A stretch of 64,000 nt of DNA, from assembly GCA_025869365.1 (NCBI GenBank), contig JAOZVV010000173.1, forward strand, positions 62,001 to 126,000. The letters are read 5' to 3'. Both the position numbers and the translations under genes were made by a program. Below are positions 3,154-21,338 of the stretch, piece by piece (the stretch's first letter is position 1; each line of letters starts with the position of its first letter). The notes under the pieces were generated by a model. That model was given only the letters and a program-made list of their open reading frames with translations. It searched no databases and was not told the origin of the DNA. This DNA is from Pseudonocardia sp. Lineage in GTDB: Bacteria; Actinomycetota; Actinomycetes; Mycobacteriales; Pseudonocardiaceae.

Positions 3154-4014
3154 GTGCACAGGCACATGAACGGGTTGCGGACGGCGGTCCTCCTCGGCGG
3201 GATGAGCGCCCTGGTCCTGCTGATCGGCGGCCTGGTCGCCGGACGGACCGGCCTGATCCTCGCGTTCGTCGTCGCGCTCGGGATGAACGGCTACGCCTAC
3301 TTCAACTCCGCGAAGCTCTCGCTGCGCGCGATGCACGCCCGCCCGATCACCGAGACCGAGCATCCGGGCATGTACCGCATCGTCCGGGAGCTCAGCCAGC
3401 GTGCGCGCCAGCCCATGCCACAGCTCTACCTCAGCCCCACCAACGCCCCCAACGCGTTCGCCACCGGGCGCGACGCGCGGCACGCCGCGGTGTGTGCCAC
3501 CACCGGCCTGCTCGACCTGCTCGACGAGCGGGAGCTGCGGGCCGTCCTCGGGCACGAGCTCAGCCACGTCTACAACCGGGACATCCTGATCTCCTGCGTC
3601 GCCGGGGCGATGGCCAGCATGATCGGGTTCCTGGCGAACATCGCGATGTTCAGCGGGCTGTTCGGCGACGGTGACGGCGAGCGGCCCAACCCGGTCGCGG
3701 TGATCCTGATCGCGATCCTCGGGCCGATCGCGGCGGGTGTCGTGCAGATGGCCGTCAGCCGGTCCCGGGAGTACCAGGCGGACGCGTCCGGGTCCGAGCT
3801 GACCGGGGACCCGCTGGCCCTGGCCTCAGCGTTGCGCAAGCTCGAGTACGGCGTCGCCCGGGCCCCGCTCCCACCCGAGCCGAACCTCGTCGCGCAGTCC
3901 CACCTGATGATCGCCAGCCCGTTCCGGCCCGGGGAGCAGATGGCGAGGCTGTTCTCCACCCACCCGCCGATGGCGGACCGGATCCGGCGCCTGGAGGAGA
4001 TGGCCCGCCGCTGA
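3154..4014 (+). CDS. htpX: M48-family zinc metalloprotease HtpX
   Basis: Membrane-bound zinc endopeptidase involved in quality control of membrane proteins. The 286-residue length is normal for actinobacterial HtpX. Two hydrophobic segments lie at about residues 8-30 and 31-50, the zinc motif HELSH sits at about 134-138, two more membrane segments follow at about 145-165 and 175-195, and the third zinc ligand is the glutamate of SREYQAD near 206. The GTG start at 3154 is preceded seven bases upstream by AGGCGAG; an internal ATG at 3166 is the alternative. It converges on the coiled-coil protein gene ending at 4020. Confidence 0.93.
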
Positions 4015-4019
4015 GCCGG

Positions 4020-4820
4020 CTAGTCGGGTGCGGGGCCTTCCCCGCGGGCGAGCCGCTCGACCTCCGCCACCCCGCCCCGCAACGCGTCCAGCTCGCCGCC
4101 GAGCTCGTCGACGACCCGCCTGCCCGGCCCGTCCCCGGACGACGCCGCCATGGCGAGCACCTCGACCGCCCGGGTGTTCAGGCTCTCCAGGCCCAGCGCC
4201 GCCGACTGCAGGCGGGCGAGCGCGGTCTCCCGCGCCTGCGCCAGCCTCGAGTACGCCGCCAGTTGCTGCTCGACGCTCGCGAGCCCGGACTCGTGCTCGG
4301 CGCGGACCTCACCGCTGCGGGCCCGCCGGATCTCCGACGCCAGCCGGGCGCGCTCGTCGCCGAGGTCGCGGGCCGGGATCCGGGCCATGGCCTGCTCGAA
4401 CGCCGTGGCCTGGCCGGCCAGCCTGCGGACCGCGGTGTCCGTCGTCGAGGCCTTGTCCCGGACGTCCCGGACCTGCTCGCGGGTGACGCCCGCCGCGGCG
4501 CCCTCCACCGTCTCGTCGAGCCTGTGCAGGGCCGCGTCCGCGCGGTCCAGCCAGCGACGCGCCTCGGTGCCCCGCGGCGGTTCCGGCAGTTCGGTGGGGC
4601 CCGGCGGGTCGTGCGGCGACGGCAGGCCGGGGGCGGAGCGCCGGTTCAGCAAGGCGTCGCTGCCGACCTTCACGCCGTAGACGACGGCGGCGACCCCCAC
4701 GCCGAGCGCCACCCCCACGCCGCCGGCCGGGATGACGGCCCAGGCCATCCCGCCCGCGACCGCGCCGACCACGGCGGCCCAGGGGTCCACGAGCCGTTCC
4801 CGGAGTCCCACGCGATGCAT
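4020..4820 (-). CDS. membrane-anchored coiled-coil protein of unknown function
   Basis: A 266-residue protein that I cannot assign to a named family. Residues 10-50 form one or two closely spaced hydrophobic helices rich in Gly/Ala/Val. A proline-rich linker follows (about 65-85), then a long Ala/Arg/Glu-rich helical region from about 85 to the end with coiled-coil-like heptads. It lies 16 bp downstream of the substrate-binding/VWA fusion on the same strand, so the two are probably co-transcribed. The ATG at 4820 directly abuts GGGAGG, leaving no spacer. The GTG at 4811, nine bases from that sequence, may be the true start. The C-terminus is acidic and lacks motifs. Confidence 0.7.
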   Translation of the reverse strand: MHRVGLRERLVDPWAAVVGAVAGGMAWAVIPAGGVGVALGVGVAAVVYGVKVGSDALLNRRSAPGLPSPHDPPGPTELPEPPRGTEARRWLDRADAALHRLDETVEGAAAGVTREQVRDVRDKASTTDTAVRRLAGQATAFEQAMARIPARDLGDERARLASEIRRARSGEVRAEHESGLASVEQQLAAYSRLAQARETALARLQSAALGLESLNTRAVEVLAMAASSGDGPGRRVVDELGGELDALRGGVAEVERLARGEGPAPD

Positions 4821-4836
4821 CCTCCCAGCTCAGGGA

Positions 4837-6657
4837 TCAGAAGTTCGAGATCACGTTCGTCATCACGCTGCGGATGCTCTGCTCGTCCCCCGAGTCGTAG
4901 GCCGCCGCCCGGGTCGCCTTCGCGATCCGGGTCAGCACGTCCAGCGAGGCGTCCTCGCCGTAGGCGATCGGGAAGACCCGGACGAGCCGTGACGTGTCCT
5001 CCGTGTCCAGCCCGGTGACCAGGCCGTCGAGGTCGTCGTCCGGCGGGTACTCGTTCACCCCGTCCGTCAGCAGCACGACGGCGTTGATCCGGTTCGGGTC
5101 GTACGTCGCCTCGACCTGGGCGACGGCCGCCTTCGTCGTCGCGTACAGCGCCGTCCCGCCGCCGGGCTCCAGCGAGGTGATCACCCGCTGGTAGTCGTCC
5201 CGCACCTGGGCGACCGGCCCCGGCGGGACCACCACGCGGTACGGCACCCTGCTCCCGCCGAGCGGGGTGCTGAACGTCCACAGGCTCAGGACGTCGGAGT
5301 CCCCGAGCTGCCCGAGACCCTCGACGGCCGCCTCCTTCGCCAGGTCCAGCCGTGTCCCGGTGCCGACGGGTTCGCCCATGGAGCCGGACACGTCGAGCAC
5401 GAACACCAGGTTGGCCTTCTTCCGCAGGTCCTTCCAGGACGCGACGACCTGGTCCAGCACCGCCGCACCGGGCGGCTTCAGCACGGTGAACGCCCTGTCC
5501 GGCAACAGCCCGTTCTCGCGGGACAGCGGGGCACCGGGGACCCCCTCGAAGGTCCGGAACGCGGCGTCGGTGAAGCGCCTCTGCTGCTCCTCCGCACGCA
5601 GGAAGCCGAGGAAGTCCGCCGCGGCGGCACGCTTCGGGTCGTCGACCCAGCTCGCGGTCAGCGTCATGAACGGGTTGTCCGACACGAGTGTGCCGTCCCG
5701 CGGGTACACCGCGACGAGCGGGACACGCGGCTTCGGGCCCTGACCGGCCGTCGCCGGGTCACCGCTCGGGTTGCCCTGGTTGTAGTCCCAGACGGACTTC
5801 TCCTCGACGGTCACCGCGCTGATGTAGGACAGCGCGTTCCCGCGGGACGCGGCCTCGGAGAGGTTCTGCAGGAACGTCAGCGTGGTGTCCCCGTAGTGCA
5901 CGACGCTGCTCTCGACGCCCTGGACGAACTGCCGGTACTGCGGGTCCGCGACGTCCGCCGCGGTCAGGTCCGTCGACCGTCCGGTGGCGGCGAAGAAGGC
6001 GGCGACGGTGGCGTTGAGCCCGGAGGTCGAGAGCGTCGGGTTGGTCTTGCCGAGGGTGAACGTCCCCCACTCGGGATGTCCCTGGCCGCCCCAGCCGGCC
6101 GGGTCCGCCGCGAGCGCGGCCAGGTCGGTCCAGCCGATCTCCTTGTCCGGCCAGCCCAACGCCTCGGCCATGGGCTGCGGCATCGCGATGACCAGCGGCG
6201 TCTGCGCGATGGAGGGCTTGTCCACCGGGACCAGGGCGGGCCGGTCCGCCGAGGTCAGCCGCTGCTGCAGGACCGACGCCCAGGAGCTCGCCGCGGGCGA
6301 CCAGACGTCCGGTCGTGGCCCGTTCACGGCCTCGTTCCAGTCCGCCGCCAGCGCCTCCGCCGCCGCACCCGAGGCCAGCGGGGTCACCCGGACGTCCGCG
6401 CAGCCGCCGTTCACGTCCCGGTCCGCGCGGTTGTAGTCGTCCGCGACCGCGGTGAGCAGGGCCGCCTTCTCCGTCGACGCGGTGACGTTCAGCGGGGTGC
6501 AGTCCGCCCGTTGCGCGCGGGTGGGGACGTCCCCGCCGGTGTCGTCGCCACCGGTGACGGCGACCCGGACGACGACGACCAGGGCCGCGCCCACCGCGAG
6601 GGCGATCACCAGCGCGATCCGGTTGCGGCGACGGGGTGTTCCGGACGGTCGGGTCAA
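4837..6657 (-). CDS. substrate-binding plus von Willebrand factor A domain protein
   Basis: A 606-residue secreted or lipid-face protein. The N-terminus has basic residues then one hydrophobic helix (about 13-33), a signal anchor. Residues 55-390 resemble a periplasmic substrate-binding domain (extracellular solute-binding type 1/11), and a VWA domain follows with the metal-site motif DVSGSMGEP starting at about residue 422 and LLTDGVNEYPPDDD near 520. The start is TTG at 6657, chosen because a perfect AAGGAGG lies six bases upstream. VWA domains bind protein or metal partners; the ligand of the first domain is unknown. The gene heads a two-gene unit with the coiled-coil membrane protein. Confidence 0.85.
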   Translation of the reverse strand: MTRPSGTPRRRNRIALVIALAVGAALVVVVRVAVTGGDDTGGDVPTRAQRADCTPLNVTASTEKAALLTAVADDYNRADRDVNGGCADVRVTPLASGAAAEALAADWNEAVNGPRPDVWSPAASSWASVLQQRLTSADRPALVPVDKPSIAQTPLVIAMPQPMAEALGWPDKEIGWTDLAALAADPAGWGGQGHPEWGTFTLGKTNPTLSTSGLNATVAAFFAATGRSTDLTAADVADPQYRQFVQGVESSVVHYGDTTLTFLQNLSEAASRGNALSYISAVTVEEKSVWDYNQGNPSGDPATAGQGPKPRVPLVAVYPRDGTLVSDNPFMTLTASWVDDPKRAAAADFLGFLRAEEQQRRFTDAAFRTFEGVPGAPLSRENGLLPDRAFTVLKPPGAAVLDQVVASWKDLRKKANLVFVLDVSGSMGEPVGTGTRLDLAKEAAVEGLGQLGDSDVLSLWTFSTPLGGSRVPYRVVVPPGPVAQVRDDYQRVITSLEPGGGTALYATTKAAVAQVEATYDPNRINAVVLLTDGVNEYPPDDDLDGLVTGLDTEDTSRLVRVFPIAYGEDASLDVLTRIAKATRAAAYDSGDEQSIRSVMTNVISNF

Positions 6658-7725: not shown

Positions 7726-8541
7726 GTGACCGAATCGTCCACCACCAGTGAGTACGGCGTCCTCGGCGTGCGGGGGGTGGACTTCACCCTGGAACGGTTC
7801 GCGCCGGCGCCGGATCTGGCCGGGCTCGTCGAACGGCACTGGGTCGTGAGCTGGGCACTGCCGCCGGGGAGACGGGCCTCGGTCACCCTGCTGCCGCATC
7901 CCTGCGTCAACGTGGTTCTGGACCGGGGGAACCTCGCGATCGCGGGGGTCGGCCGGGAGCGCTTCACCTATCCCTACGCCGGCGAGGGGCGGGTGTTCGG
8001 CGTGAAGTTCCGGCCGGGTGCGTTCCTGCCGTTCCTCGGCGAGCCGGTCTCGTCGATCACGGACGTCACGATGCCCGCGTCCCGGCTCTGGGGCCGTCCC
8101 GCGGACGAGCTCGCGGCGGCGATGACGGGCCCCGTCCCCGAGCTGATCGAGCGTGCGGAGGCGTTCCTGCGCGCGCGGTGGCCGGAGCCGGATCCCCACG
8201 TCGTGCTGGTGGGGGGCATCGTGGCGGCGCTGCTGCGGGACCGGTCGACGAGCCGGGTGGAGGACGTCGTCGAGCGGTTCGGGATCGCGCCGCGCACCCT
8301 GCAGCGGTTGTTCGCCCGCTACGTCGGGGTGAGCCCGAAGTGGGTGCTGCGCCGCTACCGGCTGCACGAGGCCGCCGCCCGGCTGGCCGAGGAGCAGGAC
8401 CGGCCGTGGGCCGAGGTGGCCGCGGAGCTCGGCTACTTCGACCAGTCGCACTTCATCCGGGACTTCACCGCGGCGATCGGCCTGACCCCGGTCGCCTACG
8501 CGCAGGCGTGCCGGAGGCACCAGGAGCCGGTCAGTGCCTGA
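7726..8541 (+). CDS. AraC-family transcriptional regulator
   Basis: A roughly 271-residue regulator with an N-terminal DUF6597-like sensing region (about residues 20-130, including a [15 protein letters not shown] stretch) and a C-terminal double helix-turn-helix. Recognition segments are [19 protein letters not shown] and [20 protein letters not shown] at 7726 was chosen because the homology starts just after it; an in-frame ATG at 7672 would overlap the divergent rfbA start codon. No clear Shine-Dalgarno is visible, so leaderless translation is possible. The gene is 38 bp ahead of a thioesterase, a possible target. The effector is unknown. Confidence 0.85.
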
Positions 8542-9073: not shown

Positions 9074-9184
9074 TCGCCCGACCGGCACCGCCGGATCCCG
9101 GTGTTCCGGCCCGGAGGTCGATCTTCATTTCTGCACATGTGAACGATCGTGCAGACTAGGAAGTCGACCAGGGGAGGCTCATCG

Positions 9185-9838
9185 GTGGAACGGCACATAG
9201 TCCTCGTCGCCCGGCCCACGCCGTCGGGTGTGGACGAGCGGTCGTTGGCCGCGCTGGCGGCGGGGGTCGCCGAGCGGGCCGGCCGTCCGGCCCGGGTCGC
9301 GTACCTGGACCAGGCGGATCCGTCGGTCGCGGCGGTGCTCGACGAGATCGCGGCGATCGCGGGTCCCCGCGACGAGGTCGTCCTCGTGCCCCTGGCCCTG
9401 CCGGCGGATGCGTACCTGCGCAACTGGGCCGCCCGCGCCGTCGCCCACTGGCACGAGTCCCGCGGAGCGGACCTGCACGTCGTCCTGAGCCCACCGCCCA
9501 CGGCCGCGCCCGGGATGGCGGATGTGCTGGCGGGCCTGGCACTCGGCGAGTCGACGCCCGTGGCGGTCAGCCCGGCTGCGTTCCGCAGTCCGGCCTGGTC
9601 GGTGCGCGAGGACCCCGCCCGGCACGTGCTGGTGTGCCGCGGGCCTCGGTGCACCGTCTACGGCGCGGGAGACACGCACCGTGCCCTCGCGGCCGCGGCA
9701 CGGGACCAGGACGTGCTGGTCACCCCGGTGGGGTGCCTCGGCCCGTGCAACCTCGGCCCGCTGGTCGTCGACAACCCCGCGGGGGAGTGGCACGAGTCCG
9801 TCGACGCCGAGCGGGCCCGCGCGCTGCTGGGCTCGTGA
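9185..9838 (+). CDS. CbiX-like chelatase domain fused to thioredoxin-like [2Fe-2S] ferredoxin domain
   Basis: About 217 residues in two parts. The N-terminal half (about 1-125) resembles the CbiX/SirB-type chelatase fold with VERHIVLVARPTP and VVLVPLALPADAYL. The C-terminal part has the cysteine pattern of thioredoxin-like [2Fe-2S] ferredoxins: LVCRGPRCTVYG and later VGCLGPCNLGPLVV. The GTG start at 9185 is supported by GGGGAGG six bases upstream. It converges with the riboswitch-controlled metal-type importer ending at 9928, so a role in cobalt or nickel handling or corrinoid assembly is a reasonable inference. Direct metal insertion into a tetrapyrrole is not proven by sequence, since chelatase histidines are hard to place. 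Confidence 0.75.
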   Translation: MERHIVLVARPTPSGVDERSLAALAAGVAERAGRPARVAYLDQADPSVAAVLDEIAAIAGPRDEVVLVPLALPADAYLRNWAARAVAHWHESRGADLHVVLSPPPTAAPGMADVLAGLALGESTPVAVSPAAFRSPAWSVREDPARHVLVCRGPRCTVYGAGDTHRALAAAARDQDVLVTPVGCLGPCNLGPLVVDNPAGEWHESVDAERARALLGS

Positions 9839-9927: not shown

Positions 9928-11460
9928 TCATCGTCGATCGGCTGCCGTGGCCTCCTCGCCCCCGGACGGCCCGCACCCGACGGGTGAGGGTTCGAGTTCC
10001 CGGAGGCAGCCGGAGCTCATGGTCAGGATCCGGTCCGCGTAACCCGCCAGGCGGGGTTCGTCGTGGCTGACGACGAGCAGCGCCGCGCCGGCGTCGGCGA
10101 TCTCGCGCAGGAGCGAGGTGATGGTGGCGGCGCTGGAGACGTCGAGGCTCGCGGTGGGTTCGTCGGCGATCAGCAGCGCCGGTCGGGCGACGAGCGCGCG
10201 GGCCACGGCGACGCGTTGGGCCTGGCCGACCGAGAGGCTGCCCGGGAGCCGATCGACGTCGATGTCCGCGAGACCGACCCGCTCCAGGGCGCGGGCGGCG
10301 AGTTCCCGTCGAGCGCGGCGGGAATGGCGTTCGGCCCGCGCGCGGAGGGGTTCGGTGAGGGTGCGCCACAGTGCCCACCGGCGGTCCAGGCTCGCGACCG
10401 GGTCCTGGAAGACCGGCATGACGTACCCGGGGCGCAGTGGGCGTCGGCGGCCCAGTGCTGCCGTGGCCCAGAGGTCGTGGCCGTCGAGGACGACCGTGCC
10501 GCTGTCGGGCCGTTCCATTCCTCCGACCAGGCGGGCGAGCGTGGATTTGCCCGATCCGGACCGGCCGAGCACCCCGACGATCTCGCCGCGGCGGATCGTG
10601 AGGTCAGCGCCGTCGACGGCGGTCGTCATGCCCCCGCGGTGGCGGTAGGACCGCGACACCGCCCGCACCTCGGCGACCACGGGCTCGGCGGATCGCACGG
10701 ACACGCGTCGGGGCCCGACGACGGCGGCGGCGACGAGATCGATCGTCTCCGGCGCGGTGGGTGCGCGCAGGAGCTCGGTCGCGGCGCCGCGCTCGACGCC
10801 ACGCCCGTGGGCGAGGACGAGTACCGACGTGGCGTGACGGGCGACCAGGGCGAGGTCGTGGCTGATCAGCAGCAGTGCACCGCAGGTCCGCCGGACGAGG
10901 TCGAGGACGTCGTCGGCGAGCTCGGTGTCCAAGGCGCTGGTCGGCTCGTCGGCGAGGGTGAGGAGCGGGGTGTGGGCCGTGGCCGCGACGAGCGTGGCGC
11001 GCTGCAGCATGCCGCCGGACCACTGGTGCGGATGCTGTGCGGCCCGCGTGTCCGGATCGTCGATGCCCACCCCGGCCAGTGCGGAGGTCACCGCGCCGGC
11101 GGCTGGGCGCCGTCGGTGCACCGACCAGGCCTCGGTGACGTGGTGGTGCACCGTGCGCAGGGGATCGCACGCGGCGAAGGGGTCCTGGGGGACGTAGCCG
11201 ACGACCAGGCCGCGCAGCTCCCGGCGCACGTCCTCCGATGCGCCGAGGACCTCCCGCCCGCCCACCCGGATGCTCCCCGTCGTCCGGGTGCCGGCCGGTA
11301 GCAGGCCGAGGATCGCGCGGACGAGGGTGGTCTTGCCGCTGCCCGAACGGCCGACGACGGCGTAGGACTGCCCCTCCTCGATCCTGAGGTCGACCTGGTC
11401 GAGGGCGCGGTGGCCACCGGGGTAGGTGACGGTGAGGGACTCGACGACGAGGGGGGTCAC
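9928..11460 (-). CDS. ABC transporter ATPase with two fused nucleotide-binding domains (peptide/nickel type)
   Basis: A 510-residue protein carrying both ATPases of a peptide/nickel (OppDF/NikDE) importer. Domain 1 has Walker A GRSGSGKTT near residue 38, signature QWSGGMLQRATLVA and Walker B LLTLADEPTSALD. Domain 2 has GRSGSGKST near 300, signature SLSVGQAQRVAVARA and LLIADEPTASLD. The second signature reads LSVGQ rather than LSGGQ. GTG 11460 overlaps the permease stop as GTGA, indicating translational coupling. It is the last gene of the operon behind the cobalamin riboswitch. The long frame upstream of 11460 only shadows the permease. Cobalt or nickel import is inferred from the riboswitch. 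Confidence 0.88.
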   Translation of the reverse strand: MTPLVVESLTVTYPGGHRALDQVDLRIEEGQSYAVVGRSGSGKTTLVRAILGLLPAGTRTTGSIRVGGREVLGASEDVRRELRGLVVGYVPQDPFAACDPLRTVHHHVTEAWSVHRRRPAAGAVTSALAGVGIDDPDTRAAQHPHQWSGGMLQRATLVAATAHTPLLTLADEPTSALDTELADDVLDLVRRTCGALLLISHDLALVARHATSVLVLAHGRGVERGAATELLRAPTAPETIDLVAAAVVGPRRVSVRSAEPVVAEVRAVSRSYRHRGGMTTAVDGADLTIRRGEIVGVLGRSGSGKSTLARLVGGMERPDSGTVVLDGHDLWATAALGRRRPLRPGYVMPVFQDPVASLDRRWALWRTLTEPLRARAERHSRRARRELAARALERVGLADIDVDRLPGSLSVGQAQRVAVARALVARPALLIADEPTASLDVSSAATITSLLREIADAGAALLVVSHDEPRLAGYADRILTMSSGCLRELEPSPVGCGPSGGEEATAADRR

Positions 11461-12341
11461 GAGGGCCTGCCGGGGTCGGTGGCGTCGCGCAGCGCGTCGC
11501 TGATCAGGGCGGCTGCGGTGACCGAGAGGATGAGGCCCAGGCCGGGCCCGATCAGTTGCCAGGGTGCGTAGGCGAAGGTGTTGCGGCCGTCGGAGAGCAT
11601 GTTGCCCCACTCCGCGGTCGGGGGCTGGGCGCCGAGCCCGAGGAACGAGAGCCCGCCGAGCGCGAGGACGGTCTCGCCGAGGCCGAGGGTGGCCGCGACC
11701 AGGACCTGCGAGGTCGCAGCGGGTACGACGTGGCCGATCGTGGTGCGGATCGGGCCGATGCCGGCCATCCGGGCGGCGACGACGTCCGGTCGGCGGGCGC
11801 TGCCGCGGGCGACGCTGCGGGCCAGCCGGGCCAGGCCGGCCCAGCTCGTCGCGGACATCGCGAGCACGAGGTTCCAGAAGCCGGGGCCGAGGACCCCGAC
11901 GACGGCGAGGGTCAGGACCAGCGCGGGGAGCCCGAGCAGGACGTCGGTGGCGCGGGTCAGGACGGTGTCGACGATCCCGCCGACGGCGCCGGCGAGGGTC
12001 CCGACGATCAGGCCGACGGCTGCCGCGATGGTCATGACGAGCAGCGCCGCGCCGAGGGAGGCCTGCGCGCCGACGACGCTCCGTGCGAGCAGGTCCCGGC
12101 CGGCCTGGTCGGTCCCGAACGGGTGCGACGCGCTGGGCGCGGCCAGCTGGTCGGTGTAGTCCGGCAGGTTCGGGTCCGGGACGAACCAGGGCCCGACCAG
12201 CGCCAGGAGGACGAGGACCATGGCGAGGGCCAACCCCACGCGGGCGGCCGGCCTGCGCAGCAGGGCACGCCACACACCGCGCCGGGCGTCCGGGAACGGT
12301 TCCGGCACGCCCGCTCTGGTGAGGATCCCGAGGGCGCTCAC
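11457..12341 (-). CDS. ABC transporter permease, DppC/NikC type
   Basis: A 294-residue inner membrane permease of the peptide/nickel family. After a cytoplasmic N-terminus, a first membrane helix lies at about residues 34-54, followed by the usual HPFGTDQAGRDLLARSVVGA family motif. Four to five further helices follow, and the ATPase-coupling loop AARMAGIGPIRTTIGHVVPAA lies near residue 195. The GTG start at 12341 overlaps the upstream permease stop as GTGA. It belongs to the five-part operon running from the binding protein at 14886 to the fused ATPase. The substrate is inferred to be cobalt/nickel or a metallophore because of the B12 riboswitch; sequence alone does not exclude peptides. Confidence 0.88.
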   Translation of the reverse strand: MSALGILTRAGVPEPFPDARRGVWRALLRRPAARVGLALAMVLVLLALVGPWFVPDPNLPDYTDQLAAPSASHPFGTDQAGRDLLARSVVGAQASLGAALLVMTIAAAVGLIVGTLAGAVGGIVDTVLTRATDVLLGLPALVLTLAVVGVLGPGFWNLVLAMSATSWAGLARLARSVARGSARRPDVVAARMAGIGPIRTTIGHVVPAATSQVLVAATLGLGETVLALGGLSFLGLGAQPPTAEWGNMLSDGRNTFAYAPWQLIGPGLGLILSVTAAALISDALRDATDPGRPS

Positions 12342-13276
12342 GATGACGTGCGCTGCCGCAGGCGCGGGTCGATCGCGGCGCAGACGAGGTCGACGAGCAG
12401 GCTCATGACGACGTAGACGACCACGGCGACGAGGGTGAACCCCACGACGACGGGCATGTCCCGGGCGTTGATCGCCTCGACGGTGTAGCGGCCGATACCG
12501 GGCCAGGTGAACACGCTCTCGACGATCGGCGCCCCGCCGATCAGCGCGGCCGAGCCCAGCCCGATCATGGTGAGGAACGGTGGGGCGGCGTTGGGGAGCT
12601 GGTGCACCCGTAGCCGCCGCCGGCGGCTCGCGCCCCGGGCCGCGCTGACCTGCAGGTAGGGGGCGGACCGCGCTTCCAGGAGGCTGGTCCGCAACACCCG
12701 TGACCAGCCCGCCGCGGAGGCGAGTGCGAGGGTCAGGGCCGGGAGGAACACCGTCGCCCACGTCCCGTCGGCGATCACCCTGCCGAGCCCGGCGCGGACG
12801 ACGAGCACGTCCAGGACCACCACCCCGAGCACGAAGCTGGGCACGACGAGCATCACCAGCGCGACCGCCCGCGCCGCGACGTCGGGCCAACGACCCGGAG
12901 CCGCGGCCGCGGCCGCGCCGAGCACCAGTGCGAGCGCGACGGCCAGGACGAGGGCGGCCCCGGTGAGGCGCAGGGTGGCAGGGAGACGGGTGACGAACTC
13001 CTGGATCACCGGGCTGCCCGTGCGCCAGGAGATGCCGAGGTCCCCGGTGAGCACGCCGCCGGCCCAGCGGGCGAACCGGACCACGAGTGGATCGTCGAGC
13101 CGCAGTTCCTCGCGGACGGCGGCGATCGCGGGCGGGCTCGGTTCGGTGATCCCGCGTGCCTCCAGCACCCGGCGGGCCGGATCACCCGGGGTGACCGCGA
13201 GCATCCCGAAGACCAGCACCCCCGCCCCGGCCAGGGTGACGAACGCCTGGCCGAGGCGGCGGAGGACGACCGCCAA
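12338..13276 (-). CDS. ABC transporter permease, DppB/NikB type
   Basis: The membrane partner of the NikC-like permease, about 312 residues. It starts LAVVLRRLGQAFVTLAGAGV with the first helix, then the large extracellular loop motif VREELRLDDPLVVRFARWAGG. Conserved GDLGISWRTGSPV follows, then helices and the coupling loop SAARGASRRRRLRVHQLPNA. The start is uncertain. TTG 13276, three bases after the binding-protein stop, gives the usual N-terminus. GTG 13324 would add 16 residues and overlap the previous gene by 46 bases. Neither has a good Shine-Dalgarno, which suggests translational coupling. Confidence 0.85.
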   Translation of the reverse strand: MAVVLRRLGQAFVTLAGAGVLVFGMLAVTPGDPARRVLEARGITEPSPPAIAAVREELRLDDPLVVRFARWAGGVLTGDLGISWRTGSPVIQEFVTRLPATLRLTGAALVLAVALALVLGAAAAAAPGRWPDVAARAVALVMLVVPSFVLGVVVLDVLVVRAGLGRVIADGTWATVFLPALTLALASAAGWSRVLRTSLLEARSAPYLQVSAARGASRRRRLRVHQLPNAAPPFLTMIGLGSAALIGGAPIVESVFTWPGIGRYTVEAINARDMPVVVGFTLVAVVVYVVMSLLVDLVCAAIDPRLRQRTSS

Positions 13277-13278
13277 CG

Positions 13279-14886
13279 TCAGCCGGCCGCGGAGGCGGCA
13301 GGGCCGGTGCGGGCGTCGACCCACAGGTTGGAGATCGGGACCTGGTAGTCCTTCCAGGCCGGCCCGGTGACGACCGCCGGAAGGCGGGTGCCGAGGTAGC
13401 CGAGGTAGCCGTTGTCGGCGACCCGGCGCTGGATCCGGCGGAGGAGATCGTCCCTGGACGACGCGTTCAGCTCCACTGCGACCTCGTCGATGAGCGAGTC
13501 GAGGACCGGGTCGGCGGTGCCGGTGGCATTGCTGGGGCCGTCGGAACGCAGATAGTTGATCAGCGGGGTGACGTGGTCACCGCCGAAGGACACGAACCCG
13601 TTGCCCGCCACCGCGGCGTGCCAGCCCGTCTTCTCCTCCAGCGCCGAGGTGATGTCGGGAACCTGCTCGATCTCCACGCCGACCCCGAGCTCGGCCAGCT
13701 GGGCCTGCACGGCCAGGGCCAGGGCGCCGGAGTCCGGCTGCTGCGGGTAGGTCAGCAGCGAGAAGCGGAGCGGCGTGCCCGCCCGGCTGCGGGGACCGGT
13801 TCCCGCGCGGGTCCAGCCCGCCTGATCCAGCAGGGCACCGGCTGCGGCGACGTCGGTCGACTGGGTCTTCTCCGCCCACGGACGGGAATCGGTGTACAGC
13901 CCGGTGGCCGGCACGTAGAGCTTGTTCATCACCTGGTCGGCGAGCTGGTCGTAGTCGATTCCCGCGTACACGGCCCGCCGGACGAGCGGGTCGTCGAAGG
14001 GAGCCTCGCGCTGGTTGAGTTCCAGCATGAAGGTCGGACCGAGCGGCTGCCCGGTCACGTAGAACGAGTCCGTGCGGTCCTTCAGGGTCGGCGCCGAGGC
14101 GGTGGGCGGATACAGCGCGATGTCCGCCTCGCCGGCCTGAACCGCCTGGATACGGGCGGAGACCTCGGGCACGAACCGCACGGTCAGGTCCTGCAGACCG
14201 GGCGGGCCGCCCCAGTAGTCGGGACGGGGGGAGAGCTGCATCGACTCGGTGTCGAGGCTGTCCACGACATAGGGAGCGGTGAACAGGCCCGCCTTCAGCA
14301 GATCCGCCGCGGGGGCGCCGGACGCGACGTGTCGCTGGTAGGCGGCGACGTCGTAGACCGGGACCATCGACTCGTCCGCGAGCAGCGACGGCACGTTCGG
14401 GGCCGGGCGCGTGGTCGTGAGCGTGGCTTCGAGCGGCCCGGTCGCCGTGGCCGACGCACCGGGTAGCGCTGCTGTGAGATCGGGGTTGTCGGCCAGTTGA
14501 GCGGCCAGCAGCGCTGCGAGCGCGGTGCCGTCGAGGGCCGAGGTGTTCTGGAACGTGATGCCCGGCCGCAGGGTCAGGACCCAGGACAGCGGCTGCGGGT
14601 TGGTCAGCGAGTCGAGGACCCAGGGGCTCGGGGCGCCTCCGCGCTCGGGCCGCATCAGGAGCTCGATGTAGCCGAACTCCGGGCCCCAGTACCCGTTCTC
14701 CAACGGGTCGAGATCGTCGATCGCGAAACCGGTGGCCAGGGTGAGGGTGGTCGGCCGTGGGGCCGACTCCGGCGGCGCTCCCGTCGTCGCACAACCGGCG
14801 AGGACCGCGGCGGCGAGGGCCAGCACGACGACGGCGCGCCGTCGTCGGGACAGGGGCCGTCGGGGCAGGGGGTAGCGCAACTTCAT
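13279..14886 (-). CDS. ABC transporter substrate-binding lipoprotein, family 5
   Basis: A 535-residue extracellular solute-binding protein of the peptide/nickel class (SBP_bac_5). The N-terminus is basic, then a hydrophobic segment and a lipobox LAGC at about residue 32, so it should be a membrane-anchored lipoprotein. Inside are family landmarks such as WVLTLRPGITFQNTS, ELNQREAPFDDPLVRRAVY and SRPWAEKT. ATG 14886 was chosen because GGAGAGG lies nine bases upstream; a GTG at 14907 would lie upstream of that Shine-Dalgarno. It is the first gene after the cobalamin riboswitch, which makes cobalt, nickel or a complexed form the likely ligand. Confidence 0.9.
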   Translation of the reverse strand: MKLRYPLPRRPLSRRRRAVVVLALAAAVLAGCATTGAPPESAPRPTTLTLATGFAIDDLDPLENGYWGPEFGYIELLMRPERGGAPSPWVLDSLTNPQPLSWVLTLRPGITFQNTSALDGTALAALLAAQLADNPDLTAALPGASATATGPLEATLTTTRPAPNVPSLLADESMVPVYDVAAYQRHVASGAPAADLLKAGLFTAPYVVDSLDTESMQLSPRPDYWGGPPGLQDLTVRFVPEVSARIQAVQAGEADIALYPPTASAPTLKDRTDSFYVTGQPLGPTFMLELNQREAPFDDPLVRRAVYAGIDYDQLADQVMNKLYVPATGLYTDSRPWAEKTQSTDVAAAGALLDQAGWTRAGTGPRSRAGTPLRFSLLTYPQQPDSGALALAVQAQLAELGVGVEIEQVPDITSALEEKTGWHAAVAGNGFVSFGGDHVTPLINYLRSDGPSNATGTADPVLDSLIDEVAVELNASSRDDLLRRIQRRVADNGYLGYLGTRLPAVVTGPAWKDYQVPISNLWVDARTGPAASAAG

Positions 14887-14929
14887 CGGGCGTCGCCTCT
14901 CCAGCACTTCGTGGATGACTGCGTACGTC

Positions 14930-15105
14930 GTGGCCGGTCTCCTGGCTGACGGGCGACGTCCGGGGGACGTCGGTCCGCTCCGCCTTCCCGGGGGTGAACC
15001 CAGTGGCTGCCGGCACCCTCTCCCGGCGTGGAACGGACGAACCCGATCACAGTGGCGAAGGCCGCGTCGGTGTCACACCGACTTCCCGATCACCACGACC
15101 AGCTG
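14930..15105 (-). promoter_or_regulatory. cobalamin (adenosylcobalamin) riboswitch
   Basis: Read on the minus strand, this leader contains an exact match to the B12-box consensus, AGCCAGGAGACCGGCC (complement at 14932-14947). Upstream it has the other conserved blocks in the right order: a GGGAAGTCGGTGTGA start, CTTCGCCACTGTGATC, GCCGGCAGCCACTGG and CCGGGAAGGC. It ends about 45 bases before the ATG of the substrate-binding protein at 14886. When corrinoid is plentiful it should fold and switch off the importer operon, as known for B12 riboswitches. I see no strong terminator stem after it, so control of translation initiation is more likely than attenuation. Confidence 0.93.
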
Positions 15106-15134
15106 AAGCTAGCAGTCGGACATGCTGCCGAGAA

Positions 15135-15304: not shown

Positions 15305-16477
15305 TCAGCTCTCCGCGTCGGGGCGATGGTCGGAGGCGGGCGTGTCCGCGCTCCCGCGGAGCGGGGTCGACCACCGCTCCTCCACGTGTCCGAACCGCCA
15401 CACGGCCAGGGCGACGAGCCAGGACAGGGCGAACAGCGCCACGATGCCGTAGCCGGCGTAGTCGAGGGGGATCGACGCGATCGCCGCCAGCGGGCCCGTC
15501 TCGATCCCGGCCTCGTCGACGATCACCGAGACGAGCTCGATGGTGCCGATGACCAGGGCGACCGCCACGGAGATGGCGGTGATGGTGATGTTGTAGAAGA
15601 CCTTGCGGACCGGCTTGGCGAAGGCCCAGCCGTAGGCGAAGTTCATGAAGACGCCGTCGAGGGTGTCCATCAGGCACATGCCGGCGGCGAACAGGATCGG
15701 CAGCACCAGGATCGCGTAGAACGGCAGGTCGAAGGCGGCGGTCCCGCCGGCCAGGACGAGGAGGCCGACCTCGGTGGCCGTGTCGAAGCCCAGGCCGAAC
15801 AGGACGCCGACCGGGTAGATCTGCCAGGGCCTGGTGATCGACCTGGTGAGCCCGCCGAGGAAGCGGTTCATGAAGCCTCGGTTGTCGAGCCGGTCCTCGA
15901 GCTCGCGCTCGTCGAAGTCGCCGCGGCGCATCCGACGGAAGATCGCGACGATGCCGACGAGGACGATCAGGTTGAGGATCCCGATGACCCAGAGGAACAC
16001 CCCGGAGACCGAGGCGCCGATGATCCCGGTGACGGAGTGCAGCGGGGACGAGTCGTCCTCGACCTCGCCGGCGAGGGCGCGCACGCCGACGGAGAGCAGG
16101 AACACGAGCAGGAACACGATCGTCGAGTGGCCGAGGGAGAACCAGAACCCGACGGACAGCGGGCGGCGTCGGCCCTCGCCGCGGTCGGCGAGAAGCGTGC
16201 GGGTGGTGTTGTCCACGGCGGCGATGTGGTCGGCGTCGAAGGCGTGCCGCAGTCCGAAGGTGTAGGCGAGGATGCCGACACCCACGGTGTAGGCGCCGGA
16301 CTGGCCCAGGTCGTAGTGCTCCGGAATCACGACGGTGATGAGGACGCCGAATCCGACAATGTGGAGAAGGGCGATGAAGGAAACCATTCCGGCGATCGAC
16401 CGCCGGTCCTGACGGCTCAGCGATCGTCGAATGCCGGACCAGCGACTCGTGCGGGAAGACAGCGCGGAAGTAGTCAT
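15305..16477 (-). CDS. NiCoT-family nickel/cobalt transporter
   Basis: A 390-residue membrane permease for Ni2+ or Co2+. The family signature RHAFDADHIAAVDNTTR lies in the second transmembrane helix, and the later motifs LGFDTATEVGLLVLAG and GMCLMDTLDGVFMNFAYGWA are also intact. About eight hydrophobic helices are visible. ATG 16477 follows GGTGAGG; an upstream in-frame start at 16534 would add 19 residues without family similarity. It is transcribed toward the B12-riboswitch operon, so two metal-uptake systems sit in tandem. Which metal it prefers cannot be read from sequence; the setting suggests cobalt and/or nickel. Confidence 0.93.
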   Translation of the reverse strand: MTTSALSSRTSRWSGIRRSLSRQDRRSIAGMVSFIALLHIVGFGVLITVVIPEHYDLGQSGAYTVGVGILAYTFGLRHAFDADHIAAVDNTTRTLLADRGEGRRRPLSVGFWFSLGHSTIVFLLVFLLSVGVRALAGEVEDDSSPLHSVTGIIGASVSGVFLWVIGILNLIVLVGIVAIFRRMRRGDFDERELEDRLDNRGFMNRFLGGLTRSITRPWQIYPVGVLFGLGFDTATEVGLLVLAGGTAAFDLPFYAILVLPILFAAGMCLMDTLDGVFMNFAYGWAFAKPVRKVFYNITITAISVAVALVIGTIELVSVIVDEAGIETGPLAAIASIPLDYAGYGIVALFALSWLVALAVWRFGHVEERWSTPLRGSADTPASDHRPDAES

Positions 16478-16973
16478 GAGGGCCTCACCGGAACACCGAT
16501 CGCCGCTGCTCACAGGGTGAACCCTGATGTGCACGTTCGACCGGAAACCTACTCAGCGTGCTTTGGCTTTTGCAAGACGCTGGCGTAAGGATGCCGGGTA
16601 ATGCGCATGATCGACCGGTTGCGGGAAATAGGCGCTATGCCGTCTTCGGCTGTTCTCCGGGTCACGTCGCAATGGAGTGCGGGCGGCATTTCGTGCAGTG
16701 ACCGTGGAGCGCGACGCCCACCCGGCAGCGAAACGGGGCCGGCTCCGCCGTCGGGCCGCCCCGTTCCTCGTCCGCTCGATCCGCTCCGACCTGCGTGCCC
16801 TGACGCCGGACACACGCGTGACGCCGACCACGGCCGCCGTCATGACCACATTCGGACTCGGCGTCCACGCGTCAAGAACCCGCTCGGAGGGCTGCGCGAG
16901 GTGAAGGTGAGGGCGCATACCTGGGTCGTGGCGCCGGAGCGGCGCCCCACCCGATGCCCGAAACGGAGTCCCG
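16478..16973. other. 496-bp intergenic region between NiCoT gene and lysA
   Basis: The region contains the divergent control regions. An inverted repeat CAGGGT-GA-ACCCTG lies at 16513-16526 in the leader of the NiCoT gene. A TTGCAA half-site at 16570-16575 is followed after five bases by TGGCGT, a half-matched Nur-like arrangement. A short open frame at about 16698-16904 (+) has no Shine-Dalgarno and no recognisable motif, so I do not call it a gene. I see no riboswitch here. Confidence 0.4.
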
Positions 16974-18260
16974 GTGACCCTCGCCGATCTCATCCCGACA
17001 CTGCGCCCCACCCTCGCTGCCCGGCTGGAGCCCGGCCTGTGGCCGGTCACCGCCGCCGCGACCTGTGACGGCCGGATCTCGGTCGGCGGCTGCGACCTCG
17101 GCGAGCTGGCCGAGCGTCACGGAACGCCGCTGCAGGTCCTCGATGTCGTCGACGTGCGGGATCGGTGCCGGGCTTACACACGCGCCCTGCCCGACGCCGA
17201 GATCACCTATGCGGGAAAGGCGCTCCTCACCCCGGCGGTGGCGCGGCTGGTGGCCGCGGAGGGCCTGTCGATCGACACGTGCTCCGGGGGCGAGGTGAGG
17301 ATCGCCGCCGCCGCGGGGGTGCCCGGAGAACGGATCCTGCTGCACGGCAACGTGAAGACCGACGCAGACCTGCGTGCGGCCGGCGACGCCGGAGTAGGCC
17401 GGATCGTGATCGACTCCTTCGACGAGATCGCGCGGATCGCCGAACACGCTCGCGGCGTCCAGGACGTGATGATCCGGGTGACCCCCGGCGTCGACGCCCA
17501 TACTCTGCCCGGGCTCACGACCGGCACCGTGAACCAGCAGTTCGGGCTGCCCTTCCCCGACGCGGCGATCGCGGCGAAGGAGATCGGCACGCACCCGCAG
17601 CTGCGGCTGGTCGGGCTGCACTGCCATCTCGGTTCACAGATCACCTCGACCGCGCCCTACGTCGACGCCCTCCACCGCGTCGTCGGGTTCGCCGCCGAGC
17701 AGGACATCGACCTGCGGGTGCTGGACATGGGTGGCGGTCACGCCGTGGACATCCGCGGGGACGCCCATGACGGGCCGGCCACGCTGGACCCGAAGAACCT
17801 CGCCCGGGACGTGCTCCGGGCACTGCATGGTGCGTGCGCGTATCACCGGATCCCGGTGCCTCGCCTCGTCGTGGAGCCGGGCCGGGCGATCGTCGCCCGT
17901 GCCGGTGTGACCCTGTACCGGGTATGGGCCGTCAAGCACATCGGCGACACGACCTTCGTCGCGGTGGACGGTGGGATGAGCGACAACCCCCGTCCTGCCC
18001 TCTACGGTGCCCGGTATCCCGTGCGGCGCATCGGGAAGCCGGTGCGGGCGCCGCTCTCGCCCATGACGGTGGTCGGACGGCACTGCGAGTCCACCGACCG
18101 AATCGCCGAGGGCGTGCCACTGCCCGCGGACATCGCGGCCGGAGACCTGGTCGCGGTGCCCTGCACCGGCGCCTACACCCGCTCCATGGCGTCGACCTAC
18201 AACGCCGTCGCCCCCACACCGATGCTCGGCGTCGGTGCCGGTGCGGCCCTGCCGATCTGA
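16974..18260 (+). CDS. lysA: diaminopimelate decarboxylase
   Basis: PLP-dependent fold-III decarboxylase that turns meso-diaminopimelate into L-lysine, the last step of lysine synthesis. The 428 residues match the family. The PLP lysine is in EITYAGKALLTPAV (near residue 82), the GGG phosphate loop is in LRVLDMGGGHAVDI, EPGRAIVARAG follows, and the C-terminal active-site motif VVGRHCESTDRI contains the CESxD signature. The GTG start at 16974 has GGAG four bases upstream. No homoserine dehydrogenase or threonine genes follow, unlike the common thr cluster; a tiny membrane protein gene follows instead after ten bases. Confidence 0.95.
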   Translation: MTLADLIPTLRPTLAARLEPGLWPVTAAATCDGRISVGGCDLGELAERHGTPLQVLDVVDVRDRCRAYTRALPDAEITYAGKALLTPAVARLVAAEGLSIDTCSGGEVRIAAAAGVPGERILLHGNVKTDADLRAAGDAGVGRIVIDSFDEIARIAEHARGVQDVMIRVTPGVDAHTLPGLTTGTVNQQFGLPFPDAAIAAKEIGTHPQLRLVGLHCHLGSQITSTAPYVDALHRVVGFAAEQDIDLRVLDMGGGHAVDIRGDAHDGPATLDPKNLARDVLRALHGACAYHRIPVPRLVVEPGRAIVARAGVTLYRVWAVKHIGDTTFVAVDGGMSDNPRPALYGARYPVRRIGKPVRAPLSPMTVVGRHCESTDRIAEGVPLPADIAAGDLVAVPCTGAYTRSMASTYNAVAPTPMLGVGAGAALPI

Positions 18261-18270
18261 GGGGACAGCC

Positions 18271-18465
18271 ATGATCGGCGCCGTTGTGCTGTCCGTGGTC
18301 CTCGTCCTCAGCCTGGCCCTGGTCGCCGTGCTCGACCGAGGACGGACGAGGCAGGAACACCGTCCGAACCCGGACGGTGAGATCGTCACCTGGCCCGCCG
18401 CACACGAGTGGATCACCGCTCGTCTGCGGCGTCACCACCTGACCCGCGCGAACCCGCCGCGCTGA
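18271..18465 (+). CDS. small single-pass membrane protein
   Basis: A 64-residue peptide starting MIGAVVLSVVLVLSLALVAV, i.e. a membrane helix at residues 2-21, followed by a basic, polar tail. It begins ten bases after the lysA stop with an AGGGG Shine-Dalgarno, so it is probably translated from the lysA transcript. No family recognised. Confidence 0.55.
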   Translation: MIGAVVLSVVLVLSLALVAVLDRGRTRQEHRPNPDGEIVTWPAAHEWITARLRRHHLTRANPPR

Positions 18466-19679: not shown

Positions 19680-21338
19680 GTGAGCGACACTCTCGCGGGC
19701 CTGCTCCAGGTCGTGCTGCTGCTGGTCCTGCTCGCGGCCTGCTACGCGCCGCTGGGCGACTACATGGCCAAGGTCTTCTCGTCCGAGAAGGACTGGAAGG
19801 TCGAGGCCGCCCTGTACCGCCTGGTGCGGGTCGACGCGCGCTCCGGGCAGCGCTGGCCCACCTACGCGATGGGCGTGCTGGGCTTCTCGTTCGTCTCGAT
19901 CGTGCTGCTCTACCTGCTGCAACGCCTTCAGCCGCTGCTGCCGATGTCGTTCGGCCGTGGTGCCGTCGCCCCGTCGACGGCGTTCAACACGGCGATCTCG
20001 TTCGTGACCAACACGAACTGGCAGTCCTACGTCCCGGAGACCACGCTCGGCAACACGGTGCAGATGGCGGGTCTGACGGTGCAGAACATCCTCTCCGCCG
20101 CGGTCGGTCTCGCGGTGGCCGCGGCGCTGATCCGCGGGTTCGTCCGCGCGGGCACCGACCGGATCGGCAACTTCTGGGTCGACCTGACCCGCGCCACGGT
20201 CCGGATCATGCTGCCGCTGTCGATCGTCGCGGCGATCGGACTGCTGATCATGGGGGTGACGATGTCGCTGCACTCGGGTGTCGACGTCACCGGCGTCGAC
20301 GACGCGACGCACACCCTTCCGCTCGCGCCGACCGCCTCCCAGGAGGCCGTCAAGATGCTGGGCACCAACGGCGGCGGCATCTTCAACGCCAACTCCGCGC
20401 ACCCGTTCGAGAACCCGAACGGGCTGTCCGACCTGTTCGAGATCTTCCTGATGCTCGTCATCCCCGTCGCGATGACCCGCACGTTCGGCACCATGGTGGG
20501 TAACCGCCGTCAGGGCACTGTGCTGCTCGCGGTGATGGGCGCGCTGTGGGGCGCGCTGCTCGCCGTCGCGTGGTTCGCCGAGACCCACCCCAACGGGGCA
20601 GCGGGGATCGCCGCCGGGTCGATGGAGGGCAAGGAGACCCGCTTCGGCATCCCGACCTCGATCCTGTTCGGGGTCTCGACGACCGGGACGTCGACCGGCG
20701 CGGTGAACTCGCTGCACGACAGCTACACCGGTGGCGCGGGCGGGGTGACCCTGCTGAACATGCTGCTCGGCGAGGTCGCACCCGGCGGCGTCGGCGCCGG
20801 CCTGATCGGCATCCTGGTGATCGCGATCATCGCGATGTTCCTCGCCGGGCTGATGGTCGGACGCACACCGGAGTACCTGGGCAAGAAGCTCGGACAGCGC
20901 GAGGTCAAGTTCGCCGCCGTGTACATCCTGGTGATGCCGGCGATCGTGCTGATCGGCGCCGGCCTGGCGATCGCGCTGCCGAGCACGCTCGACGCGCTGA
21001 ACAACGACGGCGCGCACGGCTTCTCCGAGGTCCTCTACGCCTTCGCCAGCGCGGCGAACAACAACGGCAGCGCCTTCGCCGGCATCACCGTGACCAGCGA
21101 CTTCTTCCAGAGCGCCCTCGGTCTGGCGATGCTGTTCGGCCGTTTCGTGCTCGTCCTGGCCGTGCTGGCGCTCGCCGGGTCCCTGGCGCAGCAGAAACGC
21201 GTCGAGGCGACAGCCGGGACGCTGGCCACGGACAAGCCGCTGTTCGGCGTCCTCGTCGGCGGCACCCTGATCCTCGTCGCCGCACTCACCTTCTTCCCGG
21301 CGCTCGCGCTCGGGCCGCTCGCGGAGGCACTCGCATGA
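19680..21338 (+). CDS. kdpA: K+-transporting ATPase subunit A
   Basis: The channel-like K+-binding subunit of the Kdp P-type ATPase, 552 residues with ten or more membrane helices. The four selectivity-filter-like loops are recognisable: [10 protein letters not shown] near 117, [18 protein letters not shown] near 228, [15 protein letters not shown] near 332 and [12 protein letters not shown] near 458. The GTG start follows kdpF by one base. Its stop overlaps the kdpB ATG as ATGA, so subunits A and B are translationally coupled. Confidence 0.97.

Follow-up and report, generated by a model that had tools for sequence, protein, structure and literature searches.

What does a family-5 ATP-binding cassette (ABC) importer carry when its genes stand behind a cobalamin riboswitch? 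The question is raised by a 64,000-nucleotide stretch of Pseudonocardia sp. DNA (contig JAOZVV010000173.1, positions 62,001 to 126,000), referred to here as the window. A sequence-only reading had described a minus-strand B12 riboswitch followed by genes for a binding lipoprotein, two permeases and a single protein with two ABC domains, and had proposed cobalt, a cobalt chelate or a corrinoid precursor as the cargo. The analysis presented here points to an importer from the broad NikABCDE family that takes up cobalt, or a cobalt chelate, and is controlled by the riboswitch, a reading to which we give a probability of about 70%. Cobalt or a cobalt chelate is the likely cargo because the binding protein is NikA-like, a CbiX-like gene is linked to the cassette, and an operator found before the importer in relatives is shared there with the cbtBA genes.

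The presence of the riboswitch was confirmed with Infernal and Rfam. The cmscan match to RF00174 lies at 15112-14915 on the minus strand and scores 82.8 bits (gathering score 31.5, E-value 6.7e-19). The window leader covers the full length of the model, positions 1-189, and the B12 box AGCCAGGAGACC is found at 14947-14936. The aptamer begins at 15112 and not at 15105, where the sequence-only reading had set the upstream limit of the system, whereas its downstream limit, the 3' end of the importer at 9928, stands. The 5.27-Mb source genome contains four RF00174 matches, three of them full-length. Besides the one in the window, one full-length riboswitch lies upstream of a CobN start, and the other full-length one is about 420 bases ahead of a BluB-CobT fusion, leaving space for another gene between.

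Four importer genes follow on the minus strand, and their Pfam matches agree with the lipoprotein, the two permeases and the double ATPase described earlier. The first gene (13279..14886) encodes a NikA-like family-5 solute-binding lipoprotein of 535 residues (PF00496, E-value 9.1e-55). The permeases are NikB/Opp2B-like (12338..13270; PF00528; NF045470 at 274 bits, cut-off 350) and NikC-like (11457..12374; PF00528 and PF12911; TIGR02790 at 244 bits, cut-off 358), and the start of each is uncertain. The last gene (9928..11460) encodes a single ATPase of 510 residues, in which PF00005 is matched in two stretches. Its open reading frame (ORF) as listed, 12273-9928, starts too early, and the GTG at 11460 is the sole in-frame start within 11431-11520. 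NikD (TIGR02770) is the best NCBIfam model for this ATPase, followed by YejF, which is matched across both halves, and then by NikE. The gene families of the broad NikABCDE peptide/nickel ABC group are complete (PF00496, PF00528 twice and PF00005 twice), and for all four components the best NCBIfam match is a nickel model. The fusion of the ATPases, which the sequence-only reading had pointed out, is real in the window but not special: among the 29 loci in which both halves are covered, 23 give one continuous match, so that the fusion is, to judge by these matches, the common state of the importer family. Fused twin-ABC importers are known.

The binding protein is closest to proteins that bind nickel. 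When a profile of 16 relatives was searched against the PDB, nickel-binding chains ranked first, with E-values of 1.3e-71 for 3t66, 3.6e-55 for SaNikA, 1.2e-48 for the NikA of 4oer and 5.5e-47 for Escherichia coli NikA. The first chain named as peptide-binding was 9pl3 at 9.3e-36, and AppA had an E-value of 1.6e-34. An AlphaFold2 model of the protein was obtained with a mean predicted local distance difference test score of 87.3 and a predicted template modeling score of 0.84. The folds nearest to this model are those of SaNikA (Z 35.8, root mean square deviation 4.1, 460 residues aligned) and Bacillus NikA (Z 35.4, root mean square deviation 3.8, 465 residues aligned). The metal-site position 416 of E. 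coli NikA, numbered by hand count, aligns with an aspartate in the window protein that is also an aspartate in SaNikA, and it does not discriminate.

The linkage between riboswitch and cassette is conserved. Relatives of the binding protein were found at 34 loci in a genome collection, and in at least 14 of these, from both Actinomycetota and Rhodobacterales, a riboswitch is present upstream of the cassette. The actinobacterial loci belong to Pseudofrankia, Nakamurella (twice), Pseudonocardia sp. CNS-139, Amycolatopsis, Nocardiopsis, Propioniciclava and Pilimelia (L066-L071, L078 and L083), and six loci are from Rhodobacterales (L085-L090). The riboswitch also precedes the cassette in three genomes beyond the 34 loci (L019, L020 and L024). 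Seven loci, six of them close Pseudonocardia and the other the more distant L073, have an ArsR/SmtB-like palindrome core (at most 2 mismatches in 12) ahead of the binding protein, and half of the palindrome is seen in one further locus, L062. Neither riboswitch nor operator was among the matches listed in nine loci, and three could not be judged (L072, L079 and L092). Loci marked as lacking a riboswitch may hide weak ones because the text pattern for the B12 box missed L078 and L083, both found by the covariance model; one riboswitch scan also used stricter filters. Among close Pseudonocardia orthologs, 10 of 12 (L006-L015) have no RF00174 match, even at an E-value of 0.5, in up to about 1.5 kb of upstream sequence, as far as the contigs reach. 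Two features of individual loci were observed in passing. The binding-protein gene of Pseudonocardia sp. CNS-139 (L068, 3524-5105) lies in two frames, through assembly error or decay, and in Nakamurella leprariae (L070) a second riboswitch at 15675-15899, a few kilobases from the cassette, precedes metE, the gene for the B12-independent methionine synthase (16018-18273).

A tree of 41 binding-protein rows was made by a quick method with Shimodaira-Hasegawa-like approximate likelihood ratio supports. The partial L079 and L092 were omitted, and no label was given to L062, with its half operator, or to L072, with only 189 bases upstream. The window falls inside a 22-row clade (support 99) that contains 11 riboswitch rows, 9 operator rows and 2 unlabelled rows. 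The operator rows of this clade are all Pseudonocardia, and its rows outside the genus all carry the riboswitch where judged. Mapping the three control labels onto the tree takes 8 changes, a lower number than in all 200 shuffles. The simplest reading would be an ancestor with the riboswitch, followed by a switch to the operator within Pseudonocardia. The window lineage would then have either kept or regained the RNA, and the tree cannot separate the two.

The leader itself suggests how control may be exerted. A hairpin at 14896..14915 on the minus strand, proposed from loop-loop pairing in a nine-row alignment, is the likely expression platform. Its arms are UCCA (14915-14912) and UGGA (14903-14900), and the 3' arm overlaps a Shine-Dalgarno-like GGAGAGG (14902-14896), after which the ATG follows at 14886. 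The hairpin loop CGAAG (14911-14907), located 3' of the B12 box, is complementary to CUUCG at 15060-15056. This layout is presumably that of a translation-controlling B12 riboswitch, in which the hairpin, its loop and the CUUCG at 15060-15056 are named P13, L13 and L5. Adenosylcobalamin, when plentiful, would bind the leader, and the L5 loop would then kiss the loop of the hairpin that overlaps the Shine-Dalgarno sequence, so that translation of the binding protein and of the genes behind it would drop. When B12 is short, the hairpin would open and cobalt uptake would rise.

Twelve actinobacterial leaders were aligned, and nine were used for pair counts. These nine share a common loop layout, either CCUCG/CGAGG or CUUCG/CGAAG, and all five loop-loop pairs are standard in each of them. 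The loops are clearly complementary; their covariation is weak. Several figures tell against the proposed pairing. The leaders of L078, L083 and L024 do not have the loop pattern, and a two-sided change is seen at one loop pair only, in two of the nine rows, which are related, both being Pseudonocardia. In a shuffle control, the covariation score was reached by 17 of 500 shuffles and one two-sided pair by 202 of 500. Sliding the register by +1 raises the covariation from 0.086 to 0.130, although only 48.5% of cells are then paired, compared with 98.6% in the proposed register.

The cassette has two neighbours that were absent from the sequence-only reading. Just past the ATPase, and convergent with the importer, lies a plus-strand gene (9185..9838) for a CbiX-like domain fused to a [2Fe-2S] ferredoxin-like domain. 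The GTG start at 9185 was read from the sequence, and the family search used 9191-9838. The PF01903 match is marginal in the window (22.4 bits, cut-off 22) and clear in L061 and L073; that of L062 is below the cut-off. L085 and L087 have no such match and are linked to the family by 31-33% identity and common cysteines. The 2Fe-2S match of the window protein is under the cut-off, and four cysteines are conserved in the aligned relatives. Among 15 aligned relatives, three rows of which are without the N-terminal part as extracted, the CbiX-like half has no invariant histidine, and the ferredoxin half has one, at its start. The cobaltochelatase activity of CbiX needs two catalytic histidines according to the part of a review available to us (PMC7689651). 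A CbiX-type chelatase therefore appears unlikely, as the CbiX-like half has no invariant histidine. We would guess at a cobalt-carrying or redox role, and within the proposed scheme the protein probably handles cobalt inside the cell.

Of the 34 loci, 11 have the CbiX-like/2Fe-2S gene near the cassette (L061, L062, L064, L068, L073 and L085-L090), and it is also beside the cassette in the window and in Pseudonocardia L037, L040 and L043. The six Rhodobacterales have it between the riboswitch and the binding protein, and their first gene lies further from the aptamer. In L085, from a Rhodobacteraceae genome, there seem by eye to be one or two short ORFs between the riboswitch and the CbiX-like gene, at about 7870-8252. 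The second neighbour in the window encodes a NiCoT nickel/cobalt permease of the HoxN/HupN/NixA family (15305..16477, minus strand, ATG at 16477), which ends 192 bases upstream of the riboswitch. It matches PF03824 with 305.6 bits and is over the family cut-off of TIGR00802 (354.9 against 333.05). Farther off, at 19680-23383, two ORFs resemble kdpA and kdpB, for potassium import, by eye.

The operator that marks the other Pseudonocardia cassettes is the palindrome ATNTGAACANNTGTTCANAT, which we take to resemble SmtB operators. With at most 2 mismatches it occurs at 41 sites in 32 of 62 Pseudonocardia genomes, and a reversed-pattern control gave zero sites in the same 62. Of these sites, 35 loci were examined. 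The neighbours are CbtB-CbtA at 11 loci, family-5 binding proteins at 11 (six of the window's type), Peripla_BP_2-related binding proteins at six, and a histidine phosphatase at one, a kind of gene also seen at several cbtBA loci; two loci are unexplained, and another four, we presume, are SOS boxes by resemblance. CbtAB are predicted cobalt transporters in the portion of the literature consulted (PMC2667541), and the accessible text of a paper on mycobacterial SmtB does not give a motif for comparison (PMC7174638).

At the importer promoter, the strict 20-base palindrome (2 mismatches) is present in six of the 11 operator-type Pseudonocardia genomes (G005, G007, G009, G020, G056 and G059). 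G006, G043, G044 and G054 match only a looser 14-base core, and G051 matches half of it. Roughly a dozen further matches to the looser core are scattered over the 34 loci, and one precedes the binding protein of L084, a locus classed as 'none'. The source genome has an operator site before cbtBA (L099). In the window the best match is a weak one with 4 mismatches of 16 (9137..9156, no strand assigned), the next best having 6 mismatches, and it lies 28 bases before the GTG at 9185 of the CbiX-like/2Fe-2S gene; the adjacent importer has the riboswitch. In the Pseudofrankia locus L066, a close palindrome match is seen at 5785 before a heavy-metal P-type ATPase gene (3754-5799).

ArsR genes in general were rejected as carriers of the operator, since the 30 best of 82 ArsR matches from three genomes had no site with 4 or fewer mismatches within 1.5 kb. 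Two groups of candidate regulators were found. The first consists of ArsR-family genes after cbtA in L096, L105, L107 and L109. The second is an ArsR gene before CbiM, accompanied in some genomes by weak sites (4 to 6 mismatches) that are missing from others. This second ArsR has a match (E-value 1e-10 or better) in 58 of the 62 Pseudonocardia genomes, with an identity of at least 74% in 53 of these. The source genome is included, and loss of this regulator is therefore not the reason for the riboswitch in the window. In L159 (3394-4911), an ArsR gene, a weak operator and CbiM lie in a row, followed by ORFs that resemble CbiN and CbiQ by eye.

A tentative extension, which we regard as possible but rather doubtful, is that Pseudonocardia has a genus-wide cobalt-acquisition regulon under an ArsR/SmtB-family protein, comprising the nik-type cassette, cbtBA, Peripla_BP_2 systems and perhaps cbiMNQO. 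The importer would have moved between the DNA operator and the B12 riboswitch, and the window genome would have its controls split, with RNA for the importer and a weak operator for the CbiX-like/2Fe-2S gene. The usual role of ArsR proteins is in metal export, unlike the control of importers proposed here.

Several observations weigh against cobalt as the cargo. The equivalog cut-offs for NikA, B, C, D and E are passed by none of the importer components. The binding protein scores 189.3 against 600 for NF045468 (NikA/Opp5A) and 91.8 against 393 for TIGR02294, and it is not called NikA because these curated cut-offs are not passed. Fold comparison was tried as a discriminator and rejected, with AapF at 33.8, GbpA at 32.5 and DppA at 32.3 next to E. 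coli NikA at 32.9; the fold does not settle the cargo because binders of other ligands score 32 to 34, level with E. coli NikA. Also discarded were B12-synthesis genes, which are present in carriers but in most non-carriers too (CobN in 111 of 129), and a complementary distribution with CbiM, since a search of 149 genomes found CbiM-family genes in 93, including many carriers, and the source genome has one as well. The source genome holds a CbtA-family transporter besides the CbiM-family one. The CbiX-like gene was not seen near the cassettes of riboswitch-bearing Actinomycetota outside Pseudonocardia (L066, L067, L069-L071, L078 and L083). The NiCoT is over the cut-off of NicT (NF052500), a model named for nickel, and nickel users are frequent among the 29 carriers examined (18 riboswitch and 11 operator-type genomes): 21 have urease and 14 have a match to NiFe hydrogenase.

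These last points favour the alternative that survives best, although we consider it improbable, in which nickel is the cargo, alone or on equal terms with cobalt, and cobalamin is a mere proxy for a common metal pool. It also agrees with the closest characterised relatives of the binding protein, which are nickel-binding proteins. Nickel users were not decisive as a discriminator, and their absence does not serve as an argument against nickel because urease and NiFe hydrogenase occur in many carriers. However, a cobalamin riboswitch would be no sensible control for nickel, the operator is common to cbtBA in relatives, and 4 of the 18 riboswitch carriers (G069, G117, G168 and G173) have neither urease nor NiFe hydrogenase, Ni superoxide dismutase not having been searched for.

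Less probable still is the uptake of a corrinoid or corrinoid precursor, the part of the earlier cargo proposal that fared worst, while its cobalt part is retained. Corrinoid uptake is often under B12 riboswitches, and the fold accepts large ligands, SapA with heme being among the fold matches. Against this, the closest PDB relatives bind nickel, and no auxotroph is evident among the carriers. CobH/CbiC (precorrin-8X mutase) is present in 29 of 29, so that corrinoid import would not be needed, and CobN is present in all 20 carriers among relatives, defined by a binding-protein match of 1e-70 or better. The source genome has CobH and CobIJ over the model cut-offs and a CobG-like protein just under its cut-off. 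Uptake of peptides or methionine sources that spare the B12-dependent methionine synthase is very improbable: it would suit membership of the Opp/Dpp superfamily and the ability of B12 riboswitches to control B12-sparing genes, such as metE behind the other riboswitch near the L070 cassette, but peptide-binding proteins rank under nickel-binding ones by sequence, and the links to the CbiX-like gene, the NiCoT and cbtBA regulation would be left unexplained.

A cobalt importer of this kind has precedents, and the arrangement is not as unusual as had been supposed. NikABCDE under a B12 riboswitch was predicted in two Firmicutes (Zhang et al. 2009, PMC2667541), and many cobalt transporters have been found through the B12 riboswitch (review, PMC7689651), as far as the accessible parts of these sources go. 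The kind is thus already known. The Firmicutes systems are likewise family-5 ABC importers behind a B12 riboswitch, set apart in the accessible text from nickel-specific members (PMC2667541); unlike them, the window cassette has fused ATPases, a linked CbiX-like/2Fe-2S gene, and relatives in Actinomycetota and Rhodobacterales. A table row of the same paper gives no NikABCDE in 40 actinobacteria. CbtJKL of Sinorhizobium meliloti, as outlined in the part of the review consulted, is likewise an ABC cobalt importer under an adenosylcobalamin riboswitch, with a BtuF-like binding protein in contrast to the family-5 protein of the window (PMC7689651). Staphylococcus aureus NikA (Opp5A) and CntABCDF share the binding-protein family and fold, and carry nickel or cobalt with small chelators; the window proteins are under the NikA and CntA model cut-offs, and CntD and CntF are separate ATPases, compared with the fusion in the window. 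We know of no riboswitch for these S. aureus systems.

In its accessible text, a survey of metal uptake in Roseobacter reports nikA from a single genome and makes no mention of the cassette (PMC4771312). A regulon survey puts 12 cobalt-transport orthologs under a B12 riboswitch, without names in the text available (PMC3766115), and its supplements may hold the Rhodobacterales case. No description of the cassette in Actinomycetota or Rhodobacterales was found in the literature, a weak negative, as supplements and subscription papers lay outside the search. The newer part would be the exchange of RNA and operator among close relatives together with the common cobalt-type regulon; further features of the window variant are the fused ATPase, the CbiX-like/2Fe-2S partner in part of the family, and the spread over two phyla.

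Many family-5 importers are annotated just as peptide/nickel transporters, and the combination of riboswitch, CbiX-like gene and common operator would allow one clade of them to be assigned to cobalt. Close relatives in which one operon is governed by different sensors, in some by a B12-sensing RNA and in others by an ArsR-type site, form a natural pair. This pair would allow a direct test of what is gained from sensing the end product as opposed to something else, probably the metal.

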